Shown here piece after piece: positions 14,793 to 22,331 of a DNA stretch of 39,868 nucleotides (position 1 is the first letter of the stretch; each line of letters starts with the position of its first letter). This DNA comes from Oscillospiraceae bacterium (lineage in GTDB: Bacteria > Bacillota > Clostridia > Oscillospirales > Oscillospiraceae). The notes under the pieces were generated by a model. The model had not been told where the DNA came from and did no database searches. It was given only the letters and a program-made list of their open reading frames with translations. A program made the position numbers and the translations under genes. Location of the stretch: NCBI GenBank assembly GCA_017537165.1, contig JAFYLI010000018.1, positions 1-39,868 on the forward strand. The letters are read 5' to 3'.

Positions 14793-14863
14793 CCTTTTAT
14801 AGTGCCTAATAGCGCTTTTTACTCAGATAATAAAAAATTTCCTATATATATGGAGGTATTTTT

Positions 14864-17800
14864 GTGGCAAGAAAACTGAAAACCATGGACGGCAACACCG
14901 CTGCGGCTCACGTAGCCTATGCGTTTACCGATGTTGCTGCCATCTACCCCATCACCCCCTCTTCCGTTATGGCAGAGATGGTCGATGAATGGTCCGCTAA
15001 CGGACGCAAGAACCTTTTCGATCAGACCGTCAGAGTTGTTGAGATGCAGTCCGAGGGCGGCGCAGCAGGCGCTGTTCACGGCTCCATCGTATCCGGCGCG
15101 CTGACCACCACCTTCACCGCTTCTCAGGGTCTGCTGCTGATGATCCCCAACATGTATAAGATCGCCGGCGAACAGCAGCCCGGCGTTATCCACGTTTCCG
15201 CCCGCGCTCTGGCTTCCCATGCCCTTTCCATCTTCGGCGACCACTCCGACGTTATGGGCTGCCGCAGCACCGGTTACGCTATGCTCTGCGCCAACAGCCC
15301 CCAGGAAGTAATGGACCTGGGCGCAGTTGCTCACCTTGCAAGCATCAAGGGAAGAGTTCCCTTCCTCCACTTCTTCGACGGTTTCCGCACCTCTCACGAG
15401 CTGCAGAAGATCGAAGTCTGGGATTACGATGAACTGGGTGAAATGCTGGATAAGGATGCCGTTGCCGCATTCCGCGCCGGCGCAAACATGCCCGCTCACC
15501 CCGTCCTCCGCGGCTCCGCCCAGAACGGCGACATCTTCTTCCAGAACCGCGAGGCAGCCAACACCGCTTACAACAACCTCCCCGCTGTTGTTGAAGAATA
15601 CATGAACGAAGTCAACCGCCGCCTGGGCACCGACTACAAGCTCTTCAACTACTACGGCGCTCCCGACGCAACCGAAGTTATGGTAGCTATGGGCAGCGTT
15701 TGCGATGCAGCTGAGGAAGTAGTTGACTACCTCAACGCCAAGGGCGAAAAGGTCGGCCTTGTAAAGGTTCGCCTGTACCGTCCCTTCAGCATCGAGCACT
15801 TCGCAGCTGCTCTGCCCGAGACCGTTAAGACCGTTGTTGTTCTTGACCGCACCAAGGAGCCCGGCAGCATCGGTGAGCCCCTTTATCTGGACGTTACCAC
15901 CGCTCTTGCACGCGCAGGCCGCGGCTGCGTGACCACCATCGGTGGCCGCTACGGTCTTGGCAGCAAGGACACCACTCCCGGCGCCATCATCTCCGCTTTC
16001 ACCAACGCCAAGAGCGACAAGCCCGTAAACTCCTTCACCATCGGCATCGTGGACGACGTTACCAACCTGTCCCTGCCCATCACCGAGGAGCCCAACTGCA
16101 CTCCCGATGACGTTGTTGCCTGCAAGTTCTGGGGTCTCGGCTCCGACGGTACCGTTGGCGCTAACAAGAACAGCATCAAAATCATCGGCGACCACACCGA
16201 CAAGAAGGTTCAGGCCTACTTCCAGTATGACTCCAAGAAGTCCGGCGGCGTAACCATCTCCCACCTGCGTTTCGGCGACAGCGCCATCAAGTCCACCTAC
16301 TATGTCAACAAGGCTGACTTCGTCGCCTGCCACGCTCCCTCTTACATCGAGCGCTATGACATCGTTCAGGATATCAAGCCCGGCGGCACCTTCCTGCTCA
16401 ACTGCGGTTGGGGCGTTGAAGAGCTGACCACCCGCCTGCCCGCCGCCACCAAGAAGTACCTTGCCGAGAACAACATCAAGTTCTACACCGTGGACGCAAT
16501 CAAGATCGCACGCGAGATCGGTCTTGGCGGCCGCACCAATATGATCCTCCAGTCCGCATTCTTCAAGCTCTCCGGTATCCTCCCCATCGAGGACGCTGTA
16601 AAGTACATGAAGGACGCTATCGTTGCTTCCTACGGCCACAAGGGCGAGAAGATCGTCAACATGAACAACGCTGCAGTTGATGCAGGTCTTGAAAGCCTCG
16701 TTGAGATCACCATCCCCGAGTCCTGGAAGAATCCCGCTCCCGACGCCGTTCCCGGCGTTACCGATACCGACCGCGTCGACCTGAAGAAGTACGTTGACGG
16801 CATCATGACTCCCGTAAACAACATGCGCGGCGACTTCCTGCCCGTTTCCGCATTTATGGATATGGCTGACGGCGCAGTTCCTCAGGGCTCCGCTGCCTTT
16901 GAGAAGCGCGGCATCGGCGTTGAGGCTCCCCAGTGGATCCCCGCAAACTGCATCCAGTGCGGCCAGTGCTCTCTGGTCTGCCCCCATGCAGCTATCCGCA
17001 CCTTCGCTTACAGCAAGGAAGAGATCGCAAACGCTCCCGCAGGCACTCAGCATCGCCAGCTTAACGGCAAGGGCTGCGAGGAATACGAGCTGGTCATCAT
17101 CGCATCTCCCATGGACTGCACCGGCTGCGGCTCCTGCGTCAACGTCTGCCCCGCAAAGAACAAGGCTCTGGTCATGAAGCCCATCGACGAGATGGCTCAG
17201 TATCAGCCCATCTTCGACTATGCAGCAAAGACTTCCGAGAAGGAGCTGCCCTTCGCTCTGAGCACCGTAAAGGGCACCCAGTTCAAGAAGCCTCTCTTCG
17301 AGTTCTCCGGCGCCTGCGCAGGCTGCGGCGAGACTCCTTACGCAAAGCTCATCACCCAGCTCTTCGGCGACAGAATGCACATCGCCAACGCTACCGGCTG
17401 TTCCTCCATCTGGGGCGGCAGCGCACCCAGCACTCCCTACACCGTAAACTCCAAGGGACAGGGCCCCGCATGGTCCAACTCCCTCTTCGAGGATAACGCA
17501 GAGTTCGGCCTTGGTATGCTCCACGGCGTAACTCAGCGCCGCGAGGGTCTTGCAGCAGCTATCTCCCGCCTGACCGAGATCGAGTACGCCGACGAGGAAC
17601 TCATCGGTCTTGCAAAGGCTTGGCTGGACGCCAAGGACGACGGCGAAGGCAGCAAGGCTGCCGCTGCTGACCTGCTTGCAAAGTGCAAGGAGCTTGACGC
17701 ACGCGACTTCACCGGCACTCCCTTCGAGAAGCCCTGGCTTGAGAACGGCAAGAAGTGCCCCTGCGAACCCTGCACCATCGTTCGCCGCATTATCAGCGAG

Positions 17801-18481
17801 GCCGACCTGCTGGTTAAGCCCTCCGTATGGTGCTTCGGCGGCGACGGCTGGGCATACGACATCGGTTACGGCGGTCTTGACCACGTTATCGCTTCCGGCG
17901 AGGACATCAACGTATTCGTCTTCGACACCGAGGTTTACTCCAACACCGGCGGTCAGGCTTCCAAGTCCACTCCCACCGGCGCAGTCGCTCAGTTCGCAGC
18001 AGCCGGTAAGAACGTAAAGAAGAAGGATCTGGCTCAGATCGCTATCTCCTACGGCTACGTTTACGTTGCTCAGATCAGCATGGGCGCTGACTACAACCAG
18101 ACCATCAAGGCTATCCGCGAGGCTGAGGCATACAAGGGTCCCTCCCTCATCATCGCTTACGCTCCCTGCATCAACCACGGCTCCAAGAACGGCATGGGCA
18201 AGAGCATGAGCACCGCCAAGGCAGCCGTTGAGGCAGGCTACTGGAACCTCTTCCGCTTCAACCCCGACCTTGAGGCCGAGGGCAAGAATCCTCTCTCCGT
18301 TGACAGCAAGGCTCCCACCGCCGACTACAACGACTTCATCATGAGCGAGGTTCGTTACAGCTCCCTGAAGCTCAGCTTCCCCGAGCGCGCAGAAGAACTC
18401 TTCAAGAAGGCTTCCGACAACGCCACCACCAAGTACAATAACCTCCTGCGCCAGCAGGCAATGTACGAAAAGAAGGACTAA
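14864..18481 (+). CDS. nifJ: Pyruvate:ferredoxin (flavodoxin) oxidoreductase
   Basis: At 1205 residues it is the full single-chain form, which converts pyruvate and CoA to acetyl-CoA and CO2 while reducing ferredoxin. Order of parts: an N-terminal pyrimidine-binding domain (AYAFTDVAAIYPITPSS), the CoA and gamma-type domains, and then a two-cluster ferredoxin insert. The insert has CIQCGQCSLVCP near 700 and CTGCGSCVNVCP near 755. The thiamine domain follows, with CAGCGETPY near 825 and GDGWAYDIGYGG near 995, and VYSNTGGQ just after it. The start codon is GTG, set by GGAGG 7 bases upstream. Codon bias is extreme, suggesting very high expression. It is monocistronic between its own promoter and a strong terminator. 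Confidence 0.97.
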   Translation: MARKLKTMDGNTAAAHVAYAFTDVAAIYPITPSSVMAEMVDEWSANGRKNLFDQTVRVVEMQSEGGAAGAVHGSIVSGALTTTFTASQGLLLMIPNMYKIAGEQQPGVIHVSARALASHALSIFGDHSDVMGCRSTGYAMLCANSPQEVMDLGAVAHLASIKGRVPFLHFFDGFRTSHELQKIEVWDYDELGEMLDKDAVAAFRAGANMPAHPVLRGSAQNGDIFFQNREAANTAYNNLPAVVEEYMNEVNRRLGTDYKLFNYYGAPDATEVMVAMGSVCDAAEEVVDYLNAKGEKVGLVKVRLYRPFSIEHFAAALPETVKTVVVLDRTKEPGSIGEPLYLDVTTALARAGRGCVTTIGGRYGLGSKDTTPGAIISAFTNAKSDKPVNSFTIGIVDDVTNLSLPITEEPNCTPDDVVACKFWGLGSDGTVGANKNSIKIIGDHTDKKVQAYFQYDSKKSGGVTISHLRFGDSAIKSTYYVNKADFVACHAPSYIERYDIVQDIKPGGTFLLNCGWGVEELTTRLPAATKKYLAENNIKFYTVDAIKIAREIGLGGRTNMILQSAFFKLSGILPIEDAVKYMKDAIVASYGHKGEKIVNMNNAAVDAGLESLVEITIPESWKNPAPDAVPGVTDTDRVDLKKYVDGIMTPVNNMRGDFLPVSAFMDMADGAVPQGSAAFEKRGIGVEAPQWIPANCIQCGQCSLVCPHAAIRTFAYSKEEIANAPAGTQHRQLNGKGCEEYELVIIASPMDCTGCGSCVNVCPAKNKALVMKPIDEMAQYQPIFDYAAKTSEKELPFALSTVKGTQFKKPLFEFSGACAGCGETPYAKLITQLFGDRMHIANATGCSSIWGGSAPSTPYTVNSKGQGPAWSNSLFEDNAEFGLGMLHGVTQRREGLAAAISRLTEIEYADEELIGLAKAWLDAKDDGEGSKAAAADLLAKCKELDARDFTGTPFEKPWLENGKKCPCEPCTIVRRIISEADLLVKPSVWCFGGDGWAYDIGYGGLDHVIASGEDINVFVFDTEVYSNTGGQASKSTPTGAVAQFAAAGKNVKKKDLAQIAISYGYVYVAQISMGADYNQTIKAIREAEAYKGPSLIIAYAPCINHGSKNGMGKSMSTAKAAVEAGYWNLFRFNPDLEAEGKNPLSVDSKAPTADYNDFIMSEVRYSSLKLSFPERAEELFKKASDNATTKYNNLLRQQAMYEKKD

Positions 18482-18615: not shown

Positions 18616-19644
18616 TTACTTCCAGATGTCGAGGCCGTAGCTCTCAACAACCTCGGTCATCCAGCGGTTGCGGCTGTTGAACAGCTCGTTATCGGGATCG
18701 CCGAAGAGCCAGTGGTTGAATACGAAGAAAGCATTCTCCTTAAGGAGGTCGATATTATCGCGAACATCCTGCTTGAACTGCTCCTCGGGATAGTTGGGGC
18801 TCAGCTGCTCGCCGAGAACGTCGAAGCCGCCGCAGAGGATGAGGTTATTGCCATACTTCTTCTGGATGCTTACCAGATCATTGCAGGACTGGGGAGGATC
18901 CCAATACTTAACGCCGAACTCTACCCAATCGTCAACCAGCATATCGCACTTACCGCAGCAGTGCATCGCTATGGGCTGATCTGCATCTCTACCGATCTGG
19001 CTTTCGCGGATCTGGAAGGGCTTGATAAGCTCACGATACTGAGTGGGGGAAACGAAGGGTGCGCCCCATGCAGCAACGTCGTCGGTGATCAGATACATAT
19101 CGGCATTATAATACTTGTAGGACTTCTTGGCTACTTCTTCATAGAAGGAGCACAGGTAATCGAAGAGGGCGGCAACTTCTTCAGGCTCTTCCTGAATGGC
19201 GCAAAGACCCTCAACGAAGCCCATGAAGGCCATGAGCTGCTGGAAATAGCCGGTGTGGAGAGAATAGGTGGTGGCGCTTTCGTTGGGGTTCATGCCATGC
19301 TTTGCAAGATTGTCAAGGTCCATCTTTGCGACCTTTTCCCAGTCGATACCGGAGATATCGGGAGCCTTTATAACGTCACGCCACTTGGTGATATCGTCAA
19401 GAATGAAGTTGCCGGGTTCGGGCAGAGAAGCAAAGCCGGCCTCGCGGTTGGAAACATAGGGAACACCCCACATATCACGGCCTTCGCCTTTCATACCGCG
19501 AAGAACAGAGGGGCCCAGGCCGATATTGAGGGCAGGACGCTTGGAATGGGGGTTACCGCCATAAGTATACTGGAGAAGGAAATCGGGGGCTTCGCCCTTG
19601 ATCATACCGAGGAAGTTTTCCTTCATTGTACGGGTTGCTGCCAT
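18616..19644 (-). CDS. UROD/MtaA-like protein, paralogue 2
   Basis: This 342-residue UROD-family barrel is clearly related to the protein at 423-1409. Shared blocks include DDITKWRDVIK, W-E-K-V, HTGYFQ/HNGYFQ, GLCA.xEEPEEV, the H-C-C-G-K-C metal motif (near 225) and WDPPQSCNDLVSIQKKYG. The third MtaA-type cysteine is again absent. It probably handles a methyl or carboxyl group with a corrinoid or thiol partner; the substrate is unknown. It has no Fe-S partner gene beside it, unlike paralogue 1. The start at 19644 follows AAAGGAG by 8 bases. Divergent to the fusion gene at 19901, with a separate promoter. Confidence 0.75.
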   Translation of the reverse strand: MAATRTMKENFLGMIKGEAPDFLLQYTYGGNPHSKRPALNIGLGPSVLRGMKGEGRDMWGVPYVSNREAGFASLPEPGNFILDDITKWRDVIKAPDISGIDWEKVAKMDLDNLAKHGMNPNESATTYSLHTGYFQQLMAFMGFVEGLCAIQEEPEEVAALFDYLCSFYEEVAKKSYKYYNADMYLITDDVAAWGAPFVSPTQYRELIKPFQIRESQIGRDADQPIAMHCCGKCDMLVDDWVEFGVKYWDPPQSCNDLVSIQKKYGNNLILCGGFDVLGEQLSPNYPEEQFKQDVRDNIDLLKENAFFVFNHWLFGDPDNELFNSRNRWMTEVVESYGLDIWK

Positions 19645-19717
19645 ATTATTGACTCCTTTCGCTGTGCGCTTTTGTCTTTTTGCACAAAGCAAAGCATTAT
19701 TTTATATTTCTTTTTCA

Positions 19718-19858: not shown

Positions 19859-19900
19859 ATCGCTATACTGTATTAAAAAAATCTACCAAGGAGGCAGTTT

Positions 19901-22279
19901 ATGAAAATAGCAGTTATCGGAGCATCCGGTAAAGCCGGCTCTCTCATCGTTTCCGAGGCTCTCGGCAGAGGCCATCAGGTTACCGCCATCATTCGCCGCG
20001 CAGACGCGATAGTTCCTCAGGGCGCAGAAATTCTGCAGAAGGATCTTTTCGACCTCACCGCCGAAGATCTTAAGGATTTTGACGCCGTTGTAAGCGCCTT
20101 CGGCACCGGCAGAGCGCCCGCAGAGGCGGCCCGCCACATCGACGCCACCAACCATCTCATCTCTGTATTCAAGCTCATTCCTCAGGTTCGCCTGCTGATG
20201 ATCGGCGGCGCTTCCAGCCTGTATACCGACGAGACCAAGGAACACATCCTGCTGGAATCCTTCCCCAGACAGTTCAGCTCCATTCCCGAAAACCAGAAGA
20301 TGGCACTGGACATCATCCGCGAAAGCGACATCAACTGGACTTTCTTCAGCCCCGCTGCTCACTTTGATCCCAACGGTGTCCGCACCGGCAAGTACGAGCT
20401 TGGCGGCGACGTTCAGATCACCAACAAGATCGGCCTGAGCTACCTCTCCTACGCCGACTATGCAGTTGCCATGGTGGACGAGATCGAGAACAACAAGCAT
20501 CCCCGCCAGCGCTTCACCGCTGTTTCCACCGATCCCTACTTCCGCAATGCTCCTCAGTTCTATAACCTGCCCGTCAGCATGTTCTCCCGTGCAGGCGCAT
20601 GGATGGGTCTGGCTGTAAACAGCGTAAAGTACGGTCAGGCAGCGCTCCACCTTATCACCAGCCGTGGTATGCGCAACCACAACCGCATTCCCGATGGCAG
20701 AAACCTTTTCCGCATTTACCCCACCTATGACGGCAAGCGCGTTCCCTTTGCCGCTCAGGTTACCGAATCCGAGCTTACCCTCCACACCCTTTGGGGCGAC
20801 GTCCGCTTCACTTGGGCAGATGCCAACAAGCTTATGGCAGAAGGCGACAAGGGCATGGGTCTGCTTTGGACCAGAACTACCGAGGCTTACGAGCTGGTAA
20901 AGCCCCGCAAGAACGGCGGCTGGGAATCCGCACTGCGCAGCGCTGCTCCTCTCTGCTTCAAGGGTCTGGAAGGCTCCGAGTTCCGCTTCGACGATACCTG
21001 GGATTGGTACGAGCTCAACTGCGGCCAGCTGATGGGTAAGACTTATCCCGGCCCCGACGGCACCTTCACCATGGTCTGCGAAGAGTTCCTTTACGCAGTC
21101 AAGGTTCGCGACAGTTATCCCACCTATGCCGAGGCAAAGGCAAGCATGCAGGCCGATTGGGAAGCTTTCCTTGAAAAGATCCCCCACTTCATCGAGCCTT
21201 ACGAGTCCAAGCGCGTTGACACCGCTTACTTCCTTTGGACCCACCTGGTCGCCCCCACTCAACTGACTCCCAAGTGGATGATGCTCATGTTCCCCGGCGA
21301 GATGGACACCTCCTGGCAGCTGGTTCAGAACGGCGCAGCTCTGCAGGATAACACCGCGCTTTCCCGCGAACTGCTGCTGGCTCCCCTGTATCGTCAGGGT
21401 GAGGACGGTCAGCTGGCCGACGGCTATGACGAAGCATACATCTCCACCGGCAGCTACAAGCCTCCCGTATACGGTTTCGCTCTCAAGAACATTCTCGCTC
21501 ACCACGATATGAGCAAGGAATGGCCCCGCGAAGAGCTTGAAATGCTCTATGAGGGTGCAGGCAAGTGGGCCGATTGGATCATGGAATACCGCGATGACGA
21601 CGAAGACGGTCTCCCCGGCTTCGAAGGCGGCAACGAGGACGGCTTCGACGAAGTTACCACCTATTGGGAGCAGCTCTCTCTCGCAACTCCCGACCTCTGC
21701 GCTCAGCAGGTACTGAACTTTGAGGCTCAGGGCGACCTTGCAAAGCTTCTTGGCAAGCCTCAGGAGGAGATCGACAGCTGGTACGCAAAGTCCACCACCC
21801 TCCTCAACCGCATGATCGAGAATATGTGGGACGGCGAGCACTTCTGCGCTCTCAAGCCCTACACTCACGAGAAGATCTTCGCAGGCTCCCTCATCCATTA
21901 CATTCCTCTGGTTCTGGGCGAGCGTCTGCCTCAGAACATCATTGACAAGATGACCGCCGACCTCATGGTCGAAGGCAAGCTCCTCAGCCCCTACGGTCTG
22001 GCCAGTGAAAACATGGACAGCGACGTATTTGAATTCTCCGGCGTAAAGATGGGCTGCGGCCCCATCAATCCTCCCGGCCAGCTCTTCATCCTTTACGGTA
22101 TGTGGCAGGCAGGCAAGAAGGCCGAAGCCAAGATGATCATCGACCGCTACCTCGGTCGTCTTATGAACGGCGGCTTCTCTCACTTCGTTGACCCCGTCAA
22201 CGGCGACGGTTCTCCCTTCTGGGGCACCTGGTGCCGTGCCGTATTCCTCATTCTCGCACGTATGGTTTCCGAAGGCTGA
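19901..22279 (+). CDS. Fusion of NAD(P)-binding Rossmann domain and (alpha/alpha)6 glycosidase-like domain
   Basis: This 792-residue protein is open throughout. Residues 1 to about 210 form a complete NAD(P)H-binding domain of the atypical SDR type: MKIAVIGASGKAG (GxxGxxG), a FGTGRAP turn near 68 and an IGGASSLY strand near 107. A hinge with a hydrophobic helix (about 222-250) and a beta-rich stretch lead to a helical barrel from about 400. Its glycosidase marks are PGEMDTSWQLVQNGAA, SYKPPVYGFAL, and DEDGLPGFEGGNEDGFDE near 568-585. The last of these holds the expected acid Asp of GH63/MGH-type enzymes. GPINPPGQLFILYG and FSHFVDPVNGDG lie near the end, and in the latter His stands where family members have the base Glu. 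No signal peptide, so cytoplasmic. AAGGAGG precedes the ATG; monocistronic. Substrate unknown. Confidence 0.75.
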   Translation: MKIAVIGASGKAGSLIVSEALGRGHQVTAIIRRADAIVPQGAEILQKDLFDLTAEDLKDFDAVVSAFGTGRAPAEAARHIDATNHLISVFKLIPQVRLLMIGGASSLYTDETKEHILLESFPRQFSSIPENQKMALDIIRESDINWTFFSPAAHFDPNGVRTGKYELGGDVQITNKIGLSYLSYADYAVAMVDEIENNKHPRQRFTAVSTDPYFRNAPQFYNLPVSMFSRAGAWMGLAVNSVKYGQAALHLITSRGMRNHNRIPDGRNLFRIYPTYDGKRVPFAAQVTESELTLHTLWGDVRFTWADANKLMAEGDKGMGLLWTRTTEAYELVKPRKNGGWESALRSAAPLCFKGLEGSEFRFDDTWDWYELNCGQLMGKTYPGPDGTFTMVCEEFLYAVKVRDSYPTYAEAKASMQADWEAFLEKIPHFIEPYESKRVDTAYFLWTHLVAPTQLTPKWMMLMFPGEMDTSWQLVQNGAALQDNTALSRELLLAPLYRQGEDGQLADGYDEAYISTGSYKPPVYGFALKNILAHHDMSKEWPREELEMLYEGAGKWADWIMEYRDDDEDGLPGFEGGNEDGFDEVTTYWEQLSLATPDLCAQQVLNFEAQGDLAKLLGKPQEEIDSWYAKSTTLLNRMIENMWDGEHFCALKPYTHEKIFAGSLIHYIPLVLGERLPQNIIDKMTADLMVEGKLLSPYGLASENMDSDVFEFSGVKMGCGPINPPGQLFILYGMWQAGKKAEAKMIIDRYLGRLMNGGFSHFVDPVNGDGSPFWGTWCRAVFLILARMVSEG

Positions 22280-22296
22280 TTTGAATAATTTAATTA

Positions 22297-22331
22297 AAAA
22301 ACGCAGGACTGGCTTTCAGTCCTGCGTTTTT
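22297..22331 (+). terminator. Terminator of the fusion gene
   Basis: A 15-bp stem (22297-22311 with 22317-22331) ending in T5, 17 bases after the stop codon. Confidence 0.9.

Follow-up and report, generated by a model that had tools for sequence, protein, structure and literature searches.

What does a protein do that joins an NAD(P)-binding Rossmann domain to a glycosidase-like helical barrel with an altered catalytic site? The question was raised by a gene in a 39,868-nucleotide stretch of an Oscillospiraceae genome (the stretch is hereafter the window and the genome G000), for which a first-pass annotation had proposed that the product might not be a plain hydrolase. The gene, its signals, and the domains that it encodes are as follows.

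19888..19894, plus strand: Shine-Dalgarno sequence AAGGAGG, read from the sequence, 6 nt 5' of the ATG at 19901
19901-22279, plus strand: the fused gene, an uninterrupted open reading frame of 792 codons
19901..20527, plus strand: N-terminal Rossmann domain, residues 1-209, NAD_binding_10 / NmrA-like, from Pfam, PDB sequence matches, and fold
20555..21100, plus strand: beta-sandwich domain of the GH63-like part, residues ~219-400, from the AlphaFold secondary structure and a YgjK alignment that starts at residue 219
21194..22276, plus strand: (alpha/alpha)6-type barrel, residues ~432-792, MGH1-like_GH, from Pfam and the structural match to TtMGH
22300..22331, plus strand: probable intrinsic terminator, a perfect 12-bp hairpin with a T run, read by eye 3' of the stop

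The single 792-codon frame was confirmed, its coordinates and length being exact, and GGAGG-type sites at equal spacing were also found in fused relatives of the window gene. Of the regulatory signals claimed earlier, the gene's own promoter was not supported: the nearest plus-strand consensus matches lie ~190 nt upstream, within an AT-rich stretch, and there are no others. The claimed terminator probably corresponds to the 12-bp hairpin followed by T's that was read by eye after the stop; the consensus scan has no match listed at 22300-22331. No signal peptide was evident by eye at either start. A long antisense frame (19883-22183, minus strand) is unsupported and probably arises from the codon composition. 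Elsewhere in the window, 14819-18481 holds two overlapping antisense frames of more than 1100 codons each, and the minus-strand frame scanned there had no Pfam match. The neighbors of the fused gene in the window, a divergent URO-D methyltransferase and convergent ABC transporters, form no clear pathway.

Both halves of the protein were recognized by profile and by structure. In Pfam, NAD_binding_10 matched residues 7-192 (66 bits against a cut-off of 27.2, E 5e-18), and MGH1-like_GH (PF22422, of the clan of six-hairpin glycosidases) matched residues 501-770 (57.7 bits against a cut-off of 27, E 2e-15); NCBIfam gave only weak matches far below cut-off and no equivalog above it. Structure was predicted by an AlphaFold run with 41 family sequences (mean pLDDT 93.3, pTM 0.87), and a single-sequence run (pLDDT 38) was discarded. 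In the model, residues 1-210 matched SP1627 (4r01) with a Z of 32.8 and an rmsd of 1.2 Å over 206 residues. Similarly, residues 219-792 matched Escherichia coli YgjK, a GH63 enzyme (Z 35.5, 544 residues, 3.7 Å, 14% identity), and the barrel alone (~436-787) matched TtMGH (4wvb; Z 34.6, rmsd 2.3 over 336 residues). These matches show that the earlier two-domain assignment was right, and they add to the glycosidase-type (GH) part the N-terminal beta-sandwich of YgjK. The protein thus has the two-domain fold, with an (alpha/alpha)6 barrel, of GH63-type inverting hydrolases, and it belongs by profile and structure to the MGH1-like/GH63 fold family. The Rossmann domain has the GxxGxxG motif that had been described, which reads GASGKAG (residues 7-13) and is degenerate only in the fusions of two genomes, G230 and G170. 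The PDB sequence relatives of the domain include SP1627 and Lmo0794 (3ew7), and these two and the L. casei protein 3h2s resemble residues 1-210 with 44-45% identity and keep the motif. Within the NmrA/NADH-flavin-reductase-like group, the Rossmann part is nothing out of the ordinary; SP1627-type proteins stand alone, whereas the domain of the window runs into a glycosidase-type protein with no linker between them.

Is the fusion real? The first-pass annotation had noted that, if the halves were always separate genes elsewhere, the layout might be an assembly join. A search for homologs with the same layout revealed a genuine fusion, present in 12 proteins from 11 genomes and 5 genera, all of one bacterial family, of which 400 genomes were searched. 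An assembly or annotation artefact has nothing in its favor beyond the unusual layout, and we rejected it as having a negligible probability in view of 12 fusions with a common junction in 11 genomes. Besides the window genome, these are G129, G199, G015, G218, G267, G341, G305, G168, G230, and G170; the fusion of G305 is cut by a contig end, and G168 (record L018, an Oscillospiraceae MAG from sheep duodenum) has two tandem copies. Beyond the family, samples from the order (394 genomes) and the class (391 genomes) yielded the halves as separate genes and no fusion. The junction is seamless, in that the end of complete lone Rossmann proteins falls approximately where, in the fused protein, the sequence corresponding to a lone GH protein begins. 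G373 encodes the halves in two adjacent genes (213 and 593 codons) with 61 nt between them.

The two halves tell different parts of this history. The fused Rossmann parts and the split copy of G373 form one clade against 18 stand-alone proteins (UFBoot 88, SH-aLRT 85), with a single change of state in 92% of bootstrap trees. In the GH tree, the fused rows are scattered, with five changes of state, of which at least four are forced. Most simply, the pairing arose once and domains were then lost or exchanged among tandem GH copies: in G341 and G267, a lone GH gene lies downstream of the fused gene and its close kin are the GH halves of the G015/G218 fusions.

In most lineages, the Rossmann part is under purifying selection. 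Its dN/dS is ~0.10 in the close pairs G341/G267 and G015/G218 (0.05-0.10 for the GH part) and 0.11 between the tandem copies of G168 (0.22 for the GH part), which indicates that the domain is maintained by selection. The domain has decayed in G230 and G170, where the motif reads GAETALG, dN/dS is 0.41, and evolution is faster; the Rossmann part of G230 has no Pfam match. The redox function is therefore dispensable in those two.

We then asked which catalytic residues of the barrel are kept. A profile of the clade was aligned to the solved enzymes MhGgH, TtMGH, and YgjK, with the catalytic numbering and substrate-contacting residues of MhGgH taken from PMC6608630 (published numbers equal the chain index minus 2). 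Three positions define the site.

21317..21319, plus strand: Gln473, at the position of YgjK Asp324 / MhGgH Asp43, from alignments
21647..21649, plus strand: Asp583, at the general-acid position (MhGgH Asp182), from profile alignment
22181..22183, plus strand: His761, at the general-base position (MhGgH Glu419, YgjK Glu727), from profile alignments to three solved enzymes

The acid block GNEDGFDE is kept, as had been reported, and Asp583 corresponds to the general acid of MhGgH. The SHFVDP block also reads as described, with His761 exactly at the general-base Glu of MhGgH, TtMGH, and YgjK. A Glu aligned at this position was sought in three separate alignments, and each time His761 was found: the altered letter of the MhGgH E419A variant sequence falls in its column, and the base Glu of YgjK (PIQENYNP) aligns with it, in agreement with the MhGgH mapping. 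Asp324 of YgjK, the last residue of its W-P-W-D motif, pairs with the corresponding Asp of a canonical relative (L015), and both occupy the Gln473 column of the multiple alignment. In PDB entries, the D324N and E727A mutants of YgjK are titled glycosynthase. Overall, the window protein shares with YgjK (3d3i, 5gw7, 5ca3) the two-domain fold and the acid Asp, but it has His761 for Glu727 and Gln473 for Asp324, lacks the Tyr-Trp motif, and carries an additional Rossmann domain. The same holds against TtMGH (4wvb) and MhGgH (5ohc): the barrel is alike at residues 432-787 (Z 33-35, rmsd 2.3-2.6) and both enzymes are PF22422 members, whereas Glu419 and Asp43 are replaced, Tyr375-Trp376 is lost, and a beta-sandwich and a Rossmann domain are added at the N terminus. 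Since two catalytic features of GH63-type hydrolases, the base Glu and the supporting Asp, are missing, we did not file the protein as a GH63 hydrolase.

To see how widely this pattern extends, the site was surveyed in 65 sequences, namely 64 bacterial relatives and YgjK. All nine sequences that carry the base Glu have Asp473 and Tyr-Trp as well, whereas all 52 with Gln473 lack both the base Glu and Tyr-Trp; the rows are related by descent, so these counts are not independent events, and what matters is that the sequences divide cleanly into two types. The acid position of the Gln473 type is D in 47 of the 52 and E in 4. One Pfam family in gut and digester bacteria thus holds two clean types, a canonical one (D/E/YW) and a rebuilt one (Q/no Glu/no YW), and automatic annotation labels the latter glycoside hydrolases despite the missing base.

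The residue at position 761 follows the GH tree. The entire 20-row clade that holds most fusions has His, and the 17-row sister of that clade has Phe; other rows have Met, Leu, Val, or Ala, with Met in the decayed fusions of G230 and G170. Because these variants extend across a mostly unfused clade, loss of the base preceded the fusion and was independent of it; the loss is a mark of that whole clade. The earlier view of an altered base therefore stands as to the residue, but not as to its meaning: we rejected His761 as a new base specific to the fusion, and, since sister groups have Phe, Leu, or Met there, it is probably not the general base itself.

One way to reconcile a kept acid with a lost base is an ordinary inverting glycosidase whose base has been relocated, for example to Glu342 of the beta-sandwich or to Glu703, and which is joined to a housekeeping aglycone reductase. 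Glu342 occurs in 50 of the 52 clade members and is almost absent from the canonical ones, Glu703 is conserved in most, and the acid Asp583 is kept. However, Glu703 is also found in canonical members that have the normal base, and its aligned position lies outside the substrate-contacting residues of MhGgH (PMC6608630). We regard this explanation as unlikely, though less so than the other rivals considered below.

Alternatively, phosphate or another anion could replace the base as in GH65 and GH94 glycoside phosphorylases, with His761 helping to hold the anion. In maltose phosphorylase, a His reportedly stands in place of the glucoamylase base, a parallel given no weight here. Inverting phosphorylases need the acid alone, with phosphate in the base role (PMC8950772); within GH65, the phosphorylases have a phosphate site, which includes Lys, His, and two Ser, where the hydrolases have their base (PMC8626586). 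GH65 and GH94 enzymes resemble the window protein in the (alpha/alpha)6 barrel and beta-sandwich, the single acid, and the absence of a Glu base, and GH94 phosphorylases were among the structural matches (Z ~27). Yet GH63 and TtMGH match better (Z 35), and no sugar-phosphate mutase was recognized among the scanned neighbors. Moreover, His761 is unconserved beyond one clade, and the Phe, Leu, or Met of the sister groups means that it is no general phosphate ligand of the clade as a whole. A phosphorylase-like protein thus appears to us a slim prospect.

The joint loss of base and supporting Asp would also suit an NAD(P)-sensing, glycan-binding protein, in which the NmrA-type domain would report the redox state and the barrel would be a pseudo-enzyme or under allosteric control. 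NmrA-type proteins do include redox sensors. The retained acid (D or E in 51 of the 52) makes such a role less likely, and three further observations speak against it: the GH part is under strong purifying selection, a DNA-binding or signaling domain is absent, and the many unfused paralogs per genome are better suited to enzymes. We consider a sensor a slightly slimmer prospect still.

The genomic neighborhoods of the relatives were also read, with genes called by our own ORF caller. FAD_oxidored genes lie 3-21 nt from the GH gene on the same strand in G129/G199, beside a fused copy (at 3-6 nt), and in G015, G218, and G154, beside unfused copies. Other unfused relatives are adjoined by SDR genes (on both sides in G006, upstream in G149) or by a nitroreductase (G010). 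A different family is represented by G526, where ~280 nt separate a stand-alone gene of the window protein's Rossmann type (51% identity) from two related GH genes in tandem. For comparison, the window genome has 21 SDR matches (some of them fragments), 2 nitroreductases, and 2 NAD_binding_10 matches, including the fused gene. An oxidoreductase occupies 6 of ~27 distinct slots (p 1e-6 if the background is 1.3% and 0.005 if it is 6%), but the oxidoreductase families were chosen post hoc, so this statistic, and with it the association of GH loci with oxidoreductases, is suggestive only. Near relatives of the gene, we also found plant-fiber genes (GH67, glucuronyl esterase, GH120, and PF00756 esterase; GH127 and GH43), and at other loci housekeeping genes (PheS, GlnA, HisZ).

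Taken together, our best explanation, offered tentatively and with a little less than even confidence, is a cytosolic, redox-linked glycoside-processing enzyme whose barrel chemistry is rebuilt and non-standard. It is supported by the conservation of the fusion in 11 genomes, the selection on the Rossmann part, the redox neighbors of unfused relatives, and an acid kept while base and supporting Asp were lost together. The two-part protein would act on a small imported glycoside, likely plant-derived to judge from the neighboring genes. Its Rossmann part would bind NAD(P)(H) and carry out a redox step on the glycoside, the aglycone, or a released product, and the barrel would cleave or transfer the glycosyl group through Asp583, bypassing the standard GH63 route in which the C-terminal Glu activates water. 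Three chemical routes would then be open to the cleavage step: attack by phosphate or some other nucleophile, use of a base that has moved (Glu342 or Glu703, for instance), or action on a substrate already activated by redox chemistry. That the protein binds NAD(P)(H), that both parts are catalytic and serve one common pathway, and that cleavage departs from the Glu-water route are inferred from sequence. A bolder version, which we think improbable though less so than a phosphorylase, is that the redox step (or phosphate) replaces the base, with NAD(P)-dependent oxidation or reduction of the sugar or aglycone followed by acid-only cleavage in one polypeptide; if true, the clade would consist of redox-coupled, base-less glycosidases with a cleavage chemistry new to the GH63 fold. 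Many close GH relatives have no Rossmann part, so this part is not essential to the barrel. The proposal that the protein is not a plain hydrolase is strengthened by the Asp-to-Gln change at 473, the loss of Tyr-Trp, and the redox genes that adjoin unfused relatives.

In the NAD-dependent glycosidases GH4 and GH109, NAD sits inside the cleaving Rossmann-type domain. In the window protein, the presumed cleaving domain is GH63-like by fold and the NmrA-like Rossmann domain is separate. DgpA is a Gfo/Idh/MocA oxidoreductase. The DgpABC system of gut bacteria, which acts on puerarin (PMC10539306), shares the idea of a redox step coupled to sugar removal, but its fold differs, and a homologous set was not found at the loci analyzed. 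The first-pass annotation knew of no enzyme with this layout, and our literature search, which covered only a minority of subscription journals, likewise found no described Rossmann-GH63-like fusion. From the recurrence of the fused gene, we suspect an enzyme, as yet unstudied, that links its handling of sugars to redox chemistry; the natural fusion and the oxidoreductase neighbors point to a kind of partner reaction and make a large clade testable.

Several further gene families were noticed. The URO-D methyltransferase, a divergent neighbor in the window, is found in tight operons in G300 and G149; we do not claim it as a partner, because the genome has 17 URO-D matches and, by our own estimate, ~5 would be expected near the loci by chance. 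In the 2.0-Mb genome G000, these 17 matches to MtaA-like methyltransferases, of which the window holds two (423-1409 and 18616-19692 on the minus strand), far exceed the need of haem synthesis, a surplus that probably reflects corrinoid-dependent demethylation. The same genome encodes many ~660-residue Oxidored_FMN + Pyr_redox_2 proteins that resemble old yellow enzyme and enoate reductase and appear on various contigs as partial FAD_oxidored matches; the copy at C18:13940-15922 was confirmed by Pfam. MoaF-family genes (PF10703/PF17409) are recurrent beside or not far from Gln-type GH genes (L064:9873-10706, L124:2085-4662, L125:9999-11723, L049, and L072). They lie directly 3' of the GH gene in G129/G199 and G492, and in G526 two further MoaF-like genes follow the confirmed one; the MoaF-family protein is possibly a further pathway partner. 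Beside their Gln-type GH genes, two genomes from another family encode a 393-residue protein that starts MSDQTARIRKVFAENGGILRMVPNF (L125:6859-8040 and L127:8732-9913) and has no Pfam match.

Individual copies also show unusual features. In G168, the second tandem fusion (L051:10590-12869), ended by the contig edge, has Asn at the acid position and a GH part that evolves faster than its Rossmann part, and the fusion protein L029 carries the cysteine runs CCCC and CCC in variable loops at ~36-40 and ~115-120. Tandem pairs of diverged GH63-like genes occur on contig C18 of G000 (L056:1745-5070) and at L057:2842-6195; the first gene of the C18 pair has Cys in the acid Asp column, so its product may have become inactive or serve the second as a partner without catalysis of its own.
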